Positions 13,341 through 20,319 of a stretch of DNA of 64,000 nucleotides are shown here, piece by piece. The stretch comes from Rhodococcoides fascians A25f. Lineage in GTDB: Bacteria; Actinomycetota; Actinomycetes; Mycobacteriales; Mycobacteriaceae. Positions within the stretch are counted from its first letter, which is position 1. Each line of letters opens with the position of its first letter. The position numbers and the translations under genes are program-made. The notes under the pieces are model-generated. The model saw nothing but the letters and a program-made list of their open reading frames with translations. It was not told the DNA's origin and did not search any database. The DNA lies in NCBI RefSeq assembly GCF_000760935.2, contig NZ_CP049744.1:992001-1056000 (forward strand). The letters run 5' to 3'.

Positions 13341-14684
13341 CTACGGCAACGACGGCAACTGTTTGTCGATCAACCATGCGTCCCAGAGAGTTCGGGGGCA
13401 ACCGAAGCGGGAGGCGAGGTCGGTGAAGTCCGCGGTCGCCACCGTCGAGTAGCGGTACTTGGAGGTCCATTCCTGGATCAGTCCGAAGAAGCGCTCGTCG
13501 CCGATGGTGCGTCGTACCGCATGCAGTGCCAGGGCACCGCGCTTGTAGACGCGATCGTCGAAGATGCGCTCGGGCCCAGGATCGGTGAGCTGCAGATCCA
13601 TCGCCAGACCACGCTGAATGGTGTGCGCGCGCTTGGCCTTGTCGTGAGCCGTTGCGCCGCCGGAGTTCTCGGCCCAGATCCACTCCGAGTAACACGCGAA
13701 TCCCTCGTGCAGCCAGATGTCGGCCCACTTGCCGAGGGTCAGCGAATTGCCGAACCACTGGTGCGCCAACTCGTGAGCCACCAGACGCTCGTAGTACCGG
13801 GAACCCGAACAGTGATTGGCCCCGAAGATCGACAGCCCCTGCGCCTCGATCGGAATCTCGAGATCGTCGTCGGTCACCACCACGGTGTACGACGCGAAAG
13901 GGTAAGGGCCGTACAGCCGTACGAAAGTGTCCATCATCTGCGGTTGACGGCCGAAATCGTGGTCGAACTGTGCGCGCAGTCGCGGGGGAGTGATCGCCTT
14001 CATCGGCACCGGACCCGGGCTGACGATGCGATGCTCGTACGGACCGATCTGGATGGTCGCGAGATACGTGGCCATCGGCTCGGGCTGCTCGTACACCCAC
14101 GTGGTTCGGCTGGCGCGAGTTTGCTTGCGCACCAACGTTCCGTTGGCCACCGCGTAGTACGGCGAATCGGTGGTGATGGTGATGCCGTAGCTGGCCTTGG
14201 ACACCGGATGATCGTCACACGGAAACCACGACGCAGCGCCGTTCGGCTGACTTGCGACGATCGATCCCTCGGTGAGCTCTTCCCAGCCGACCTCACCCCA
14301 CAAACCGTTGATGGGCTTGGGAGTTCCGCCGTACGTCACCGTCACCACCAACGCCGCACCCGAGGCGATCGGCTTGGCGGGCGTGATCTTCAACTTGCCG
14401 CGTTGATGGGTGAACTTCACCGAACGCGAACCGTTGACCGATACCTTTGACACGTTCATCGCCGGGCCGAGATCGAACGCGAACTTGGACACCGTCGCAG
14501 TGGTGACCGCCGTGATCTTCGCCTTGCCCGTCAACCGGTTGCTCTCCACCTTGTACTCGAGGTCGAGCTCGTAGCGTGAGACGCGGTAGCCGCGGTTGCC
14601 GTTCTGCGGAAGATACGTGTCGATCGGGTTGTCGCTGGAATCGACGTCGAACACCGGTGCCACCAATCTGCCTCCCACGATCAC
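13341..14684 (-). CDS. M1-family zinc metallopeptidase
   Basis: A 447-residue aminopeptidase-N-like enzyme. The zinc site HELAHQ (His304, Glu305, His308) with the third ligand Glu327 in LHEGFA is intact, so it should be active. It lacks a classical GAMEN; the equivalent stretch reads IPIEAQGLSIFG. It has no evident signal peptide and is shorter than PepN (about 870 residues), lacking the large C-terminal helical domain. Its start overlaps by four bases the stop of the Pls-type NRPS gene, so the two are translationally coupled. In epsilon-poly-lysine producers a zinc peptidase degrades the polymer; a similar trimming or self-protection role is inferred here. Confidence 0.8.
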   Translation of the reverse strand: MIVGGRLVAPVFDVDSSDNPIDTYLPQNGNRGYRVSRYELDLEYKVESNRLTGKAKITAVTTATVSKFAFDLGPAMNVSKVSVNGSRSVKFTHQRGKLKITPAKPIASGAALVVTVTYGGTPKPINGLWGEVGWEELTEGSIVASQPNGAASWFPCDDHPVSKASYGITITTDSPYYAVANGTLVRKQTRASRTTWVYEQPEPMATYLATIQIGPYEHRIVSPGPVPMKAITPPRLRAQFDHDFGRQPQMMDTFVRLYGPYPFASYTVVVTDDDLEIPIEAQGLSIFGANHCSGSRYYERLVAHELAHQWFGNSLTLGKWADIWLHEGFACYSEWIWAENSGGATAHDKAKRAHTIQRGLAMDLQLTDPGPERIFDDRVYKRGALALHAVRRTIGDERFFGLIQEWTSKYRYSTVATADFTDLASRFGCPRTLWDAWLIDKQLPSLP

Positions 14685-17600
14685 CCCTCGTTTCGGTCGT
14701 CGCGAATACGCGGAAAGGGATCACCCTTGGCCCACGGCGCGATCGGATTGCCTTGCCAACGAGTATGCGCGGGAACCGTATCGCCGCGCATCACCAGGGA
14801 GGCAGGCCCCACCGTCGCACCTTCACCTATACCCGAAGCGGGCAATGCGACACAGTGCGGTCCCAGAGTTGCGCCTGCGCCGAGATCGACAGTGTCCATG
14901 GACATGATCCGATCATGGAACAGGTGCGTCTGCACAACGCACCCTCGGTTGACCGTCGCACCGTCGGCCAACGTCACCAGATCGGCCTCCGGCAGCCAGT
15001 ACGTCTCACACCAGACACCGCGGCCGATGTCCGCGCCGAGCCACCGCAGCCACATGTTCAGGACGGCGGTGCCCTCGGCTGCGCGCGCGAACCACGGCGC
15101 GGCGACGGTCTCGACGAACGTGTCGGCCACCTCGTTGCGCCACACGAACGAACTCCACAGCGGGTGGTCGGTCTTGCCGATCCGGCCCACCCACAACCAC
15201 TTCGCCAACGCCGACACTGCCGCAGCCACGAAACCGGCGACGAGCAGCACGACGCCACTGAGCAGCGCAGCCAACCAGTAGCCGACGGAGTCGGCGATGG
15301 CGGTGAGCCCGAACAGCACCCCGAGCCCGATGCCGAACGTCACGACGACAGGAATCAACCGGCACGTCTCGACGAGTGCACGGGCGATCTTCAACTTCCT
15401 GGGCGGATCGAACGTGCGCGACGAGTCCGCGCTACCGGCCGCCCGGCGCAATCGCACCGGTGGGCTGCCGAGCCACGACGAGCCCGACTTCGCCTTGTCC
15501 GGCGTCGCCGACAGCACCGCGACCAAGCCGTTCTTCGGAACGGTTCGTCCTGGCCCGGTCATGCCGGAGTTACCGAGAAACGCCCGCTTGCCCACTTTGG
15601 CGTCGCCCAGATGCATCCAGCCGCCGCCGAGTTCGTAGCTGGCGACCATGGTGTCGTCGGCCAGGAACGCGCCGTCGGCGACGGTGGTGAACTTGGGGAT
15701 CATCAGCACGGTCGACGCTTCGACGTCCTTGCCGATCTTCGCACCGAGGAGTCGGAGCCAGTGCGGCGTCAGCAACGATGCGTAGAGCGGAAAGAGGAAC
15801 GTGCGCGCCGAGTCCATCAACCGTTCGGTGGCCCAGACCTGCCAGCCGATACGGCTGCGCACGGGGTGGTATCCGCCGACGAGTCCGATGCTGAGCAACC
15901 GGACTGCGACAACGGTGATCAGTGCGAACACCGCCAGCGACACCAGAGTGGCGACGGGCAACATCACCAGTCCACGTTGGAAGGCGTCGAGCACGGAGTC
16001 GGCAGTGTGAATCCACCAGCCCATGAGCACCAGGCTGACACCGATGGAGAACAGTGCCATGCCCGAGAGGAACAGGGATGCGACGCCGTACGCGAACACC
16101 CAATGGGTCGCGCGCGGAGGTGTCTCGGCGGGCCACGGATGATCGGCCTTGCCGACCTTCTGCGCAGGCGAACCGGACCACATCTGCCCGGCCTTCACTC
16201 GTCCGACGACGGCAGAGCCGGCGGTGACCACCGCGTTCTTGCCGACCTTGGTTCCGGGCAGAAGTGTCGAGCGGGCGCCGACGGTGGCCCCGGCACCGAT
16301 CTCGATGCCGCCGATGTAGACGAGATCGCCGTCGATCCAGTGCCCGGACAGATCCACCTCGGGCTCGATGGAACAGCCGTCGCCCAGCTCGAGCATGCCG
16401 GTGACCGGCGGCAGCGTATGCAGGTCGACGCCTTTGCCGATCTTCGAACCGAGAGCGCGCGCGTAATAGACCATCCACGGTGCACCCGAAAGATTGGAGG
16501 CACCGCTGGCATCGGTCAATCGTGTTGCCGCCCAAAGCCTTATGTGCATGCTCCCGCCGCGCTTGTATGCACCGGGTTTCAACCCGGCCAACAGGACGCG
16601 AGATCCGATCACCGAAATTGCCATCCGCCCGACCGGCGTGATGAACAGGACGAATGCGAGCAGAATCCACCACCACGACAGCGTCGGAGCCCACGACACG
16701 TCGCCGAACCACGACATGACGTTGAACAGCAACCCCAGCCAGGTGACCCACTGCAACCCGGTCAAGGTGGTCAACGGAACCGTCGCCAGAATCTGCGCCC
16801 ATTGGGCGGTGCGCGAAGTGGGGGCGACCTCACGTGGAACGGCCTCGACGACCGGCTTCAGGTCGTCGAGATACTGTGCGAGCGAACCCAATCGGGGGTG
16901 GTCGTACAACTGCGCGACGGTGACCTCGGGGAACCGCTCACGCAATGCCGTCACCAGTTGCGCGGCCGAGAGCGATCCGCCGCCGTTGGCGAAGAAATCG
17001 GCGTTCTCGTCCGATACCTGAGCACCGAGGATGTTGGTCCACAGCTGCGCCACCCACCCTGCCGTGCCGCCGAGCGCCGACGCACCAGCCGAGCCGGGCA
17101 GTGGCCAAGGCAGAGCGTTGCGGTCGACTTTGCCCGAGGTGCGCGTGGGCATCTCGTCGACCAATGCGAGGCGCGGTACGAGCGCCGACGGAAGCTGCTC
17201 GGCCAACAGTGTTCGGGCGGCCTCGAGATCGAAATCGGGGTCGGTGCTGGCGAGGTAGCCGACCAGAACCGAGTTTCCCGCACCGGTCTTGCGCACGGCC
17301 GCAGCAGCACCGCTGACACCCGGAAGTGCTTGCAGCGCATTGTCTATCTCGCCGAGTTCGATGCGTCGACCACCGAGCTTGATCTGATCGTCGGCGCGGC
17401 CCTGAAAGAGCAGGCCTTCGAGCTCGAGCTTGACCAGATCGCCGCTCCGATACGCCCGCTCCCATCCGAGTGAGGGCATGGGCGCATACTTTTCGGCGTC
17501 CTTGGCCGGATCGAGATACCGCGCCAGTCCGACGCCGCCGATGACGAGTTCTCCGATGTCACCGACCTGTACCGGAGCGCCCGACGCGTCGACCACAGCC

Positions 17601-18628
17601 AGGTCCCACCCGTCCAACGGCAATCCGATGCGGACGGGACCCTTCCCGTCCATGATGGCCGCGCACGCGACGACCGTTGCTTCGGTGGGGCCGTAGGTGT
17701 TCCAGACCTCGCGGCCCTCGACGGCGAGTCGCTCGGCCAGCTCCGGGGGGCATGCTTCACCGCCGAAGATGAGCAGCCGCACCGCCTCCAGTGCGACCGC
17801 GGGCCACAGCGACGCGAGGGTCGGCACCGTCGAGACGACACTGATGTCGCGGGAGACGAGCCACGGACCGAGATCGAAGCCGGACCGCACCAGCGAACGC
17901 GGCGCGGGCACAAGGCACGCACCGTGTCGCCACGCCAACCACATCTCCTCGCACGACGCGTCGAACGCCACCGACAGGCCGGCGAGCACGCGGTCGCCGG
18001 GGCCCAGTGGATCCTTCTGCAGGAACATGCGCGCTTCGGCGTCGACGAACGCCGCCGCGTTGCGATGACTGACCGCAACGCCCTTGGGTGTGCCGGTGGA
18101 ACCCGAGGTGAAGATGACCCACGCATCGTCCTCGGGAGTGGGTGGCACAGCGCTGTGTTCGGGTTCGTCCTGGGGGATGTCCTGCTTGGGGGCAGTACCG
18201 GCCGCGATACCGCCTGCGGTGACGATGGCCGTCACCTTGGCCTCCCCGAAGACCAGCTCGGCGCGCTCTTCGGGGTCGTCCGCGTCGACCGGAACGTAGG
18301 CAGCACCGGCCGCGAGGATGGACAGAATGGCCACGTAGAGCGAAAAGGAACCCGACGGCATGCGGATGCCGACGCGATCGCCGCGCCGGACGCCGGCATC
18401 GGCGAGCCACTTGGCACCCTCGGCGATGTCGTCCAACAATTCGGAGTAGCTGACCGACACGGCACCGTCGTCGATGGCGGGGGCGTCGGGAAAACGATGG
18501 GCGGTGTCGCGGAGAACGTCGATGAGCGTCCGGGCGGGAGGAGCGAGAGACGAGCGAAGAAACGCCGCCGGTGCAGGCGCGATGTCCGCGCTCGAACCCG
18601 GCAGATCGTTCTCTTGATGCACAGACAA
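14681..18628 (-). CDS. Pls/PosA-type membrane nonribosomal peptide synthetase (poly-amino-acid synthetase)
   Basis: A 1315-residue single-module NRPS. Residues about 30-510 are an adenylation domain (FTSGSTGTPKG at 174-183 region, NTYGPTE at 310-316, YRSGDL, and catalytic Lys500 in RTSGKVDRN). A carrier domain follows with Ser552 in GGGSLS. From about residue 620 the protein alternates membrane spans with three left-handed beta-helix, acyltransferase-like domains rich in hexapeptide repeats (for example EIGAGATVGARSTLLPG). This is the architecture and length of Streptomyces epsilon-poly-L-lysine synthetase. The ten specificity residues, aligned by eye to GrsA, read D-A-E-S-I-G-T-V-V-K, which I recall as lysine-like. 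The product is likely a homopolymer such as poly-lysine; other basic amino acids are possible. Confidence 0.85.
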   Translation of the reverse strand: MSVHQENDLPGSSADIAPAPAAFLRSSLAPPARTLIDVLRDTAHRFPDAPAIDDGAVSVSYSELLDDIAEGAKWLADAGVRRGDRVGIRMPSGSFSLYVAILSILAAGAAYVPVDADDPEERAELVFGEAKVTAIVTAGGIAAGTAPKQDIPQDEPEHSAVPPTPEDDAWVIFTSGSTGTPKGVAVSHRNAAAFVDAEARMFLQKDPLGPGDRVLAGLSVAFDASCEEMWLAWRHGACLVPAPRSLVRSGFDLGPWLVSRDISVVSTVPTLASLWPAVALEAVRLLIFGGEACPPELAERLAVEGREVWNTYGPTEATVVACAAIMDGKGPVRIGLPLDGWDLAVVDASGAPVQVGDIGELVIGGVGLARYLDPAKDAEKYAPMPSLGWERAYRSGDLVKLELEGLLFQGRADDQIKLGGRRIELGEIDNALQALPGVSGAAAAVRKTGAGNSVLVGYLASTDPDFDLEAARTLLAEQLPSALVPRLALVDEMPTRTSGKVDRNALPWPLPGSAGASALGGTAGWVAQLWTNILGAQVSDENADFFANGGGSLSAAQLVTALRERFPEVTVAQLYDHPRLGSLAQYLDDLKPVVEAVPREVAPTSRTAQWAQILATVPLTTLTGLQWVTWLGLLFNVMSWFGDVSWAPTLSWWWILLAFVLFITPVGRMAISVIGSRVLLAGLKPGAYKRGGSMHIRLWAATRLTDASGASNLSGAPWMVYYARALGSKIGKGVDLHTLPPVTGMLELGDGCSIEPEVDLSGHWIDGDLVYIGGIEIGAGATVGARSTLLPGTKVGKNAVVTAGSAVVGRVKAGQMWSGSPAQKVGKADHPWPAETPPRATHWVFAYGVASLFLSGMALFSIGVSLVLMGWWIHTADSVLDAFQRGLVMLPVATLVSLAVFALITVVAVRLLSIGLVGGYHPVRSRIGWQVWATERLMDSARTFLFPLYASLLTPHWLRLLGAKIGKDVEASTVLMIPKFTTVADGAFLADDTMVASYELGGGWMHLGDAKVGKRAFLGNSGMTGPGRTVPKNGLVAVLSATPDKAKSGSSWLGSPPVRLRRAAGSADSSRTFDPPRKLKIARALVETCRLIPVVVTFGIGLGVLFGLTAIADSVGYWLAALLSGVVLLVAGFVAAAVSALAKWLWVGRIGKTDHPLWSSFVWRNEVADTFVETVAAPWFARAAEGTAVLNMWLRWLGADIGRGVWCETYWLPEADLVTLADGATVNRGCVVQTHLFHDRIMSMDTVDLGAGATLGPHCVALPASGIGEGATVGPASLVMRGDTVPAHTRWQGNPIAPWAKGDPFPRIRDDRNEG

Positions 18629-18817: not shown

Positions 18818-18935
18818 CGGTCACGAGTACCAGCATCAAGCCCCGGCTAGCTGGTCGGCAACCCTCCTCCGCGGTGGGGTGCTCCGGGTGACGACCAGGC
18901 TGTTGCCGGAAAACCGGCGCGGCAAGCGCGGACTC
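18818..18935 (+). ncRNA. SAM-IV riboswitch
   Basis: The leader carries the conserved SAM-IV core: the pairing arms GGTCACGAG near 18819 and GGTGACGACC at 18887-18896, with CAAGCCCCGGCT, GGTCGGCAACCCTCC and GCGGTGGGGTGC between them, then a 3' arm ending in GCGGCAAGCGCGG. SAM-IV elements occur in actinobacteria ahead of sulfur-metabolism genes and shut them down when S-adenosylmethionine is high. Here the element precedes a desulfurase-like gene by about 50 bp. Identification is by eye from the conserved core. Confidence 0.85.
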
Positions 18936-18987: not shown

Positions 18988-20319
18988 ATGACATCTGTAC
19001 TTTCCCGCCCCTGTGCTCCTTTTGCCCCTGTTTCGGGCACGGATCTGCAGGTACCCCTGGTGCAGGGTGGCACGTGCACCTACGCCAACTTCGACTACGC
19101 GGCCAGCGCGCCGGCCCTGGCGGCAGTGACCGATCGGATCGCCGAACTGCTGCCGTTCTACTCGAGCGTGCATCGAGGTGCCGGCTACGCCTCGCGCGTC
19201 TCGACGGCTGCCTACGAGAAGGCTCGGGTGACCGTCGCCGATTTTGTTGGTGCGCAGAAGGATTCGGTGGTGGTTTTCACGCGGAACACCACCGACTCGC
19301 TCAATCTGCTGGCCGCGTGTGTGCCGGGCGACACCGTGGTGCTCGATATCGAGCACCACGCGAACCTGCTTCCGTGGCGTGATCGCCGCGTCGTGGTGGC
19401 CGCGTCGACACTTGCCGAGACCATCGACCGTCTCGACGCCGAGCTGGCCGTGAAACCTGCTGCACTGCTGGCGATCACGGGTGCATCGAACGTCACCGGC
19501 GAGGTTCTTCCCATTGCGGAACTCGCAGCTCTGGCACATCGGCACGGCGCGCGGATCGCGGTGGACGGAGCTCAGCTGGTTCCGCATCGCCGCATCGACA
19601 TCGCTGCCCTCGGCGTGGACTACCTCGCCTTCTCCGGGCACAAGCTGTACGCACCGTTCGGTGCGGGAGTGCTTGTGGGCGCGCGTGATTGGCTCGACGC
19701 CGGTGAGCCTCACCTGGCCGGTGGCGGCGCGGTACGCAGCGTGAGCATCGACCACACGGAGTGGGCCCCAGCACCTCAGCGGCACGAGGCAGGCACTCCC
19801 AACGTGCTCGGAGTTGCCGCACTGGCTGCAGCCTGTGAGGCCATCGCGGGATTCGACGACGCCGAGCTGCAGGCACACGAGCACGAATTGTCGTCCCGAC
19901 TGCGGGCCGGCCTGGCGGATCTGGAGGGCGTCGAACTACTGCAGGTGTGGGCCGACGCGCCCGACACCGTCGGCATCGTCACCTTCACGGTGGCCGGACG
20001 CGACCCGGGTGAGGTGGCTGCGTATCTCTCGGCCGAGCACGGCATCGGCGTGCGGGACGGAAAGTTCTGCGCGCATCCACTGCTCCGCCGGCTGGGCCAT
20101 GCAGACGGCGCGGTTCGAGCCAGCATCGGCCTCGGCAGTTCCTCGGCCGATGTCGACCGGCTCGTCGACGCACTCGCCGCCCTGGTGGAGTCCGGGCCGG
20201 ACTGGCACTACGAAGAGGACGGCGGCTGGTGGAACCCCGTGCCGGACCCTCGACCCTTTCCGGGCCTGGTCGACGGGGCCGCCGGGGTTGGATCCCCGTG
20301 CACCCCCTCGGACGGTTAG
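18988..20319 (+). CDS. Class-V aminotransferase-fold enzyme, cysteine-desulfurase-like
   Basis: A 443-residue PLP enzyme. The Schiff-base lysine is Lys219 in SGHKLYAP, the PLP-phosphate and ring contacts are in VDGAQLVPHRRID, and Cys361 in RDGKFCAHP sits where SufS-type (group II) desulfurases carry their catalytic cysteine. It should release sulfur or selenium from cysteine or a related amino acid. The N-terminus is about 25 residues longer than usual, and the C-terminus has a Trp/Pro-rich extension. The ATG at 18988 follows a SAM-IV riboswitch, which places it in methionine/cysteine metabolism rather than general Fe-S assembly. No Suf or Isc partner genes are nearby. Confidence 0.8.
   Translation: MTSVLSRPCAPFAPVSGTDLQVPLVQGGTCTYANFDYAASAPALAAVTDRIAELLPFYSSVHRGAGYASRVSTAAYEKARVTVADFVGAQKDSVVVFTRNTTDSLNLLAACVPGDTVVLDIEHHANLLPWRDRRVVVAASTLAETIDRLDAELAVKPAALLAITGASNVTGEVLPIAELAALAHRHGARIAVDGAQLVPHRRIDIAALGVDYLAFSGHKLYAPFGAGVLVGARDWLDAGEPHLAGGGAVRSVSIDHTEWAPAPQRHEAGTPNVLGVAALAAACEAIAGFDDAELQAHEHELSSRLRAGLADLEGVELLQVWADAPDTVGIVTFTVAGRDPGEVAAYLSAEHGIGVRDGKFCAHPLLRRLGHADGAVRASIGLGSSSADVDRLVDALAALVESGPDWHYEEDGGWWNPVPDPRPFPGLVDGAAGVGSPCTPSDG

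Follow-up and report, generated by a model that had tools for sequence, protein, structure and literature searches.

Rhodococcoides fascians A25f carries a predicted epsilon-poly-L-lysine synthetase gene that overlaps an M1 metallopeptidase gene

In Streptomyces albulus, the gene for the epsilon-poly-L-lysine synthetase (Pls) is followed by pldII, which is described as translationally coupled to pls and as encoding the major epsilon-poly-lysine-degrading enzyme (PMC9223678). Operons of pls with a peptidase gene are reported from both Streptomyces and Corynebacterium (PMC8117764). The Pls encoded in such an operon of Corynebacterium variabile yielded epsilon-poly-lysine in Streptomyces coelicolor under an S. 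albulus promoter, according to the same report; no polymer was detected in C. variabile itself, whose cultures contained no detectable Pls protein, and none was made in Corynebacterium glutamicum, although the C. variabile protein was expressed in that host (PMC8117764). The report also describes Pls homologues in coryneform bacteria, including Rhodococcus, with substrate pockets identical or highly similar to those of confirmed Pls enzymes (PMC8117764). In silico, an epsilon-poly-lysine NAPAA cluster is reported in all five Rhodococcus erythropolis strains compared (PMC10819586), and NAPAA in 218 of 263 Nocardia genomes (PMC12153302); PMC4035055 describes Pls genes of Nocardia, including one that shares 55% identity with the S. 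albulus enzyme. A NAPAA region is likewise reported for a marine Rhodococcus (PMC8396431), and epsilon-poly-lysine NAPAA clusters for the comparison strain DSM 45380 (PMC11475406) and for K. rosea (PMC10740426), while a related enzyme, the PDAP synthetase, is described in PMC4668381. The kind of enzyme, its substrate code and its occurrence in Rhodococcus are already in print. An earlier note on the DNA studied here had regarded poly-lysine as notable for such an organism, a judgement that does not stand beside the Pls homologues and clusters already reported in Rhodococcus, coryneforms and Nocardia (PMC8117764, PMC10819586, PMC12153302). Among the open-licence papers listed by our searches, we found no report of the epsilon-poly-lysine polymer itself from a Rhodococcus.

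We analysed a window of 64,000 nucleotides (the whole stretch of DNA under study) from Rhodococcoides fascians A25f. It contains a gene, pls, that very probably encodes an epsilon-poly-L-lysine synthetase, the product being predicted from sequence. This reading is based on a full-length family match, on a substrate pocket shared with the characterised structure 7WEW, which is also the best PDB match, on the presence of the carrier serine, and on the pairing of pls with a peptidase gene. The features of the locus are as follows.

14681 to 18628, minus strand: pls, Pls/PosA-family non-ribosomal peptide synthetase (1315 aa; TTG start; AAGGA 7 nt upstream)
17093 to 18583, minus strand: adenylation (A) domain (residues 16-512, the span aligned to 7WEW; pocket DAESIGTVVK)
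16868 to 17056, minus strand: carrier (PP-binding) domain (residues 525-587; phosphopantetheine site Ser552)
14741 to 16798, minus strand: TIGR02353 terminal (polymerisation) domain (residues 611-1296; three repeats, each a helix pair and a beta-helix)
13341 to 14684, minus strand: M1-family metallopeptidase (447 aa; GTG start; 4-nt overlap, GTGA, with the pls stop; HExxH-x18-E at residues 304-327)

The pls gene is a single intact open reading frame. The plus strand over the same stretch also has long open frames, as is usual in high-GC DNA. Among the nearest named relatives of the locus are those in Rhodococcus sp. IEGM 1381 (97% identity for the best segment, which covers query residues 1-1315) and R. 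fascians A44A (89% identity; residues 4-1308). The source genome (5.89 Mb, 4 contigs) holds one member of the TIGR02353 family above the cut-off; a second Pls copy was considered and rejected, the two other profile matches reaching 25.2 and 22.9 bits, far under the cut-off. Scans of the locus gave 1 promoter against 0.8 expected and 3 terminators against 3.7 expected. A larger biosynthetic cluster was also considered and rejected. When 16 neighbouring open reading frames were checked in 80 related loci (the best 80 of 592), the M1 peptidase gene recurred in 79, a SufS-like gene in 25 and the rest in 0 to 20; these loci extend at most 6 kb per side, and the outermost frames may be missed.

At the domain level, Pfam recognised an A domain at residues 40-370, a carrier domain at residues 525-587 (PF00550) and a Hexapep stretch at residues 775-807. 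The NCBIfam profile TIGR02353 matched residues 611-1296 over profile positions 2-695 of 695, with 738.8 bits against a cut-off of 423.1. We rejected a fragment of a conventional non-ribosomal peptide synthetase: the Pfam matches were AMP-binding, PP-binding and Hexapep only, with neither a condensation nor a thioesterase domain, and the TIGR02353 match is full-length. The carrier serine is Ser552, within GGGSLSAAQL, and serine occupies this position in all 81 aligned sequences (the query and the 80 loci).

The terminal domain was modelled with AlphaFold over residues 600-1315, using an alignment of 36 rows (the pls protein, 24 of the 80 related loci and 11 proteins from a protein search). The best of five models had a pLDDT of 83.0 (75 to 77 for the others) and a pTM of 0.86. 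It contains six long helices in three pairs (at about 606-638, 652-679, 842-873, 879-913, 1077-1114 and 1117-1147) and three beta-helices, each repeat consisting of a long helix pair followed by a strand, shorter helices and a beta-helix; pLDDT falls below 50 at approximately 809-830, a part of the first beta-helix. Foldseek of this model against the PDB placed hexapeptide acyltransferases on top (best E value, 1.3e-3), with no match of the whole model below an E value of 0.001. A PDB search with the terminal-domain sequence gave 71 matches, short or weak (best, 4.9e-5), and those listed included hexapeptide acyltransferases, gamma carbonic anhydrases and similar beta-helix proteins. No solved structure of a Pls terminal domain was found in these two PDB searches, and no cryo-EM study of a Pls enzyme in the open-licence literature. 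A hydropathy scan of residues 600-1315 gave peaks but did not discriminate, since shuffled versions of the same residues averaged 5.9 segments and reached 14. By analogy with characterised relatives, we infer that the six long helices lie in the membrane.

The ten substrate-pocket residues of the A domain (D223, A224, E227, S266, I287, G289, T311, V319, V320 and K500) read DAESIGTVVK. They were mapped by motif anchors to what we take to be the corresponding GrsA positions, and the alignment with 7WEW, the A domain of an epsilon-poly-L-lysine synthase, returned the same ten letters. This structure was the best PDB match of the A domain (632 bits; next match, 378 bits), with 64% identity over 485 residues and the same residue at 10 of 10 pocket positions. 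DAESIGTVVK was also read in 81 of 81 sequences, comprising the query and the best 80 of the 592 loci, a uniformity that is partly a selection effect. In a second set of 29 loci the same pocket was found in 26, with no A domain aligned in the other three. A contrast set of 18 regions, many of them chosen from the searched genomes for low scores, contained 8 with DAESIGTVVK, 5 with DFEY(I/L)GTVTK, 1 with DFECLSAVTK and 4 without an A domain in the usual place; 15 of these regions were new, and 3 (L128, L129 and L130) were repeated from the 29-locus set with other flanks.

The results for the pocket and the domains agree with most of what the earlier note had proposed. All ten residues that it had named, from Asp223 to Lys500, were correct. 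Its domain order (A domain, carrier, three beta-helix units) is borne out by Pfam, the full-length TIGR02353 match and the AlphaFold model, and its DAESIG-type lysine code by the identity with 7WEW at 10 of 10 positions, the note having itself proposed an alignment with characterised Pls proteins. The carrier serine, whose absence it had set down as evidence against Pls, is present. The strand of pls and the partner peptidase are additions to what the note had described. Its overall reading of the gene as a poly-lysine-type synthetase, with the product as a prediction, is thus supported by the family match, the pocket, the carrier serine, 7WEW and the gene pair.

The substrate itself deserves scrutiny, as the enzyme might instead polymerise another diamino acid, such as ornithine, diaminobutyrate, diaminopropionate or beta-lysine. 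Other monomers do occur in the family: PMC10522769 gives a predicted pocket of DMEHNGTVSK for PosA, the delta-poly-L-ornithine synthetase of Acinetobacter baumannii, and a pocket of DGESISVVNK for a beta-lysine enzyme. PosA has, moreover, been crystallised with ornithine and with L-lysine in one site, so the pocket code is not absolute. PosA shares the NCBIfam family of the present enzyme by name, and its terminal-domain fold, as worded in PMC10522769, agrees with our AlphaFold model; it differs in its pocket and in having no obvious co-transcribed neighbour, as described there, whereas the gene studied here has DAESIGTVVK and an overlapping peptidase gene. The second pocket position is reported in PMC10522769 as Ala in lysine-activating members, Met in PosA and Phe in PDAP/PDAB synthetases, and the full identity with 7WEW, which includes this Ala, argues against a different monomer.

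The members with DFE pockets point the same way. L114 to L118 (DFEY(I/L)GTVTK) and L119 (DFECLSAVTK) have the same arrangement of A domain, carrier and TIGR02353 terminal domain, but they differ in their pockets and are just 35-36% identical to the query in the A domain and 31-32% in the terminal domain. In an A-domain tree of 30 rows, in which 7WEW was the sole characterised enzyme, these six were split 100/100 as a separate branch from the other 24 rows (the query, 7WEW and 22 more sequences with DAESIGTVVK). Polymerisation of a diamino acid other than lysine appears very improbable, and lysine homopolymerisation is our best prediction for the product of the pls enzyme.

The protein encoded next to pls belongs to the M1 family (Peptidase_M1, PF01433; 88.8 bits against a cut-off of 27.7) and carries the zinc motif HExxH-x18-E at residues 304-327. 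GxMEN, the canonical aminopeptidase motif of M1 peptidases, is missing: the pattern G[AG]M[ED]N was unmatched, and a looser pattern gave GLSIFG only. A simple hydrophobicity scan of the peptidase found no hydrophobic segment, while S. albulus PldII is described as located outside the membrane (PMC9223678); we counted this difference and the missing GxMEN motif against the Pls-PldII reading.

The pairing of the two genes was observed well beyond strain A25f. Of the 80 loci (best 80 of 592), 79 had a same-strand M1 gene downstream of pls, at a distance of at most about 2.1 kb, the one exception being L066, which stops at a contig edge. The M1 start was assigned by a crude rule, as the first start codon met when reading from a point 60 nt upstream of the pls stop. 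Assigned in this way, the start possibly overlapped the pls stop in 69 of these 79 loci (by exactly 4 nt in 28), followed it within 50 nt in 4 and lay farther away, up to 2.1 kb, in 6. In the 29-locus set, M1 was downstream in 25 of the 26 loci with the Pls pocket. At L106, which has this pocket, no M1 gene was found downstream within about 5 kb (examined as the extended region L128), and at L120, also with the Pls pocket, none was found in the roughly 1.5 kb examined downstream. From its position and family, the M1 peptidase is probably the counterpart of PldII.

The locus resembles S. albulus Pls and pldII in the order of A domain, carrier and three-repeat terminal domain, in the ten-residue pocket (7WEW) and in the overlapping downstream metallopeptidase gene; it differs in that A-domain identity is 64%, and for the terminal domain and peptidase the comparison with S. 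albulus is by description. The enzyme would act as follows, with lysine as substrate, the epsilon linkage, membrane insertion, export and the role of the peptidase all being extrapolated from characterised relatives. L-lysine, activated with ATP by the A domain, would be loaded by it onto the carrier's phosphopantetheine arm. The terminal domain, with three beta-helix units each placed after a membrane helix pair, would join lysines repeatedly via the epsilon-amino group and may deliver the short lysine homopolymer outside the cell. The co-translated M1 metallopeptidase would then trim or destroy the polymer, protecting the producer.

To examine how widely the family occurs, we searched 61 genomes, including that of A25f, with the family profile, and 45 scored above the cut-off. 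A TIGR02353 family member above the cut-off was found in all 37 genomes of the genus, compared with 8 of 24 from the rest of the order, and in 73 of 296 genomes of a class sample. The cut-off alone is informative here, as at an E value of 0.001 or less the profile matched 13 of 14 control genomes, of which 1 was above the cut-off. Of the 8000 candidates scored in a protein search, 7793 had an E value of 1e-30 or less, and many of the 120 matches listed are named by NCBI as members of the Pls/PosA family, Rhodococcus proteins included.

Such a gene could also be silent or inactive, with an intact sequence and no polymer formed in nature, which would be compatible with its identity as Pls. A parallel is C. 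variabile, likened here by description: it too is a mycolic-acid actinobacterium, and its Pls has the same architecture and an operon with a peptidase gene (PMC8117764). Its Pls was proven by heterologous expression, whereas that of Rhodococcoides is predicted from sequence. Because the C. variabile gene gave polymer only in S. coelicolor, with none detectable in C. variabile and no Pls protein detected in its cultures (PMC8117764), silence of pls in Rhodococcus is possible. On the other side, the reading frame is unbroken both in A25f and in its relatives, neither the pocket nor Ser552 varies among the 81 sequences, and each of the 37 genus genomes has a family member, so we regard a silent locus as unlikely. 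The intact frame, the conserved pocket and Ser552, and the genus-wide presence suggest that pls may be under selection.

What the polymer would do for the cell is a separate matter, and it bears on the role of a Pls product without altering the identification as Pls. The product might serve as a constitutive polycation of the envelope or stress response and not as an antibiotic released from the cell; the M1 peptidase would then adjust how long the chains become. Presence of the family above the cut-off in 37 of 37 genus genomes fits a core function better than an antibiotic cluster of sporadic occurrence, and repression of pldII is reported to shift chain lengths in S. albulus (PMC9223678). 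The counts of 8 of 24 genomes in the rest of the order and, for the class sample, 73 of 296 indicate, however, that the family is dispensable more widely, and we consider an envelope or stress role rather unlikely. We would offer with similar reserve, because every genus genome examined keeps a family member, the speculation that the genus makes poly-lysine as a core trait and that the polymer belongs permanently to the cell surface or the stress physiology of Rhodococcoides and of related mycolic-acid bacteria; 'core' here refers to the family and not strictly to the lysine pocket, since the pocket code was read for some of the 37 genus members.

Overall, given the intact epsilon-poly-lysine gene pair predicted here, it is reasonable to add this Rhodococcoides lineage to the candidate sources of a polymer used commercially as a preservative. 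With the enzyme and its code already described, the constant presence of the family in the genus is the remaining point of mild interest, and its occurrence in 37 of 37 genomes turns the role of the polymer for the cell into a testable question.

The gene for the predicted epsilon-poly-L-lysine synthetase (pls) is divergent from a SufS-like gene, which is preceded by a SAM-IV riboswitch:

18819-18934, + strand, SAM-IV riboswitch (112 bits against a cut-off of 38)
18988-20319, + strand, class-V aminotransferase/SufS-like gene, divergent from pls

In a scan of eight related loci, a SAM-IV match was observed on the opposite strand upstream of pls in six, and a homologue of the SufS-like gene was present in 25 of the best 80 of the 592 related loci.

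A pairing of pls with an M1 peptidase gene was also found in L079, a contig whose label assigns it to a metagenome-assembled genome of Bifidobacterium breve. Its Pls shared 69% identity with the query over the best segment, the same level as mycobacterial relatives, and the label is possibly a binning error. The pairing has an exception in L128 (G197:C32:9000-19000), a locus from the same taxonomic family as the window, where the synthetase carries the Pls pocket (DAESIGTVVK) and no M1 gene was found within approximately 5 kb downstream.

An N-terminal A domain was absent from the TIGR02353 proteins of four loci. In three of these (L121, L129, and L130), Pfam detected a carrier domain and Hexapep and no AMP-binding domain. 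The fourth belongs to the genus of the window itself:

L113, 1945-6300, + strand, TIGR02353 protein

Its domain order is rearranged, with the carrier close to the start and the AMP-binding domain C-terminal.

GxMEN is the canonical aminopeptidase motif. A pattern search did not find it in the M1 peptidase (13341-14684, - strand), and a looser pattern matched GLSIFG, which might be a sign of an unusual isopeptide substrate.
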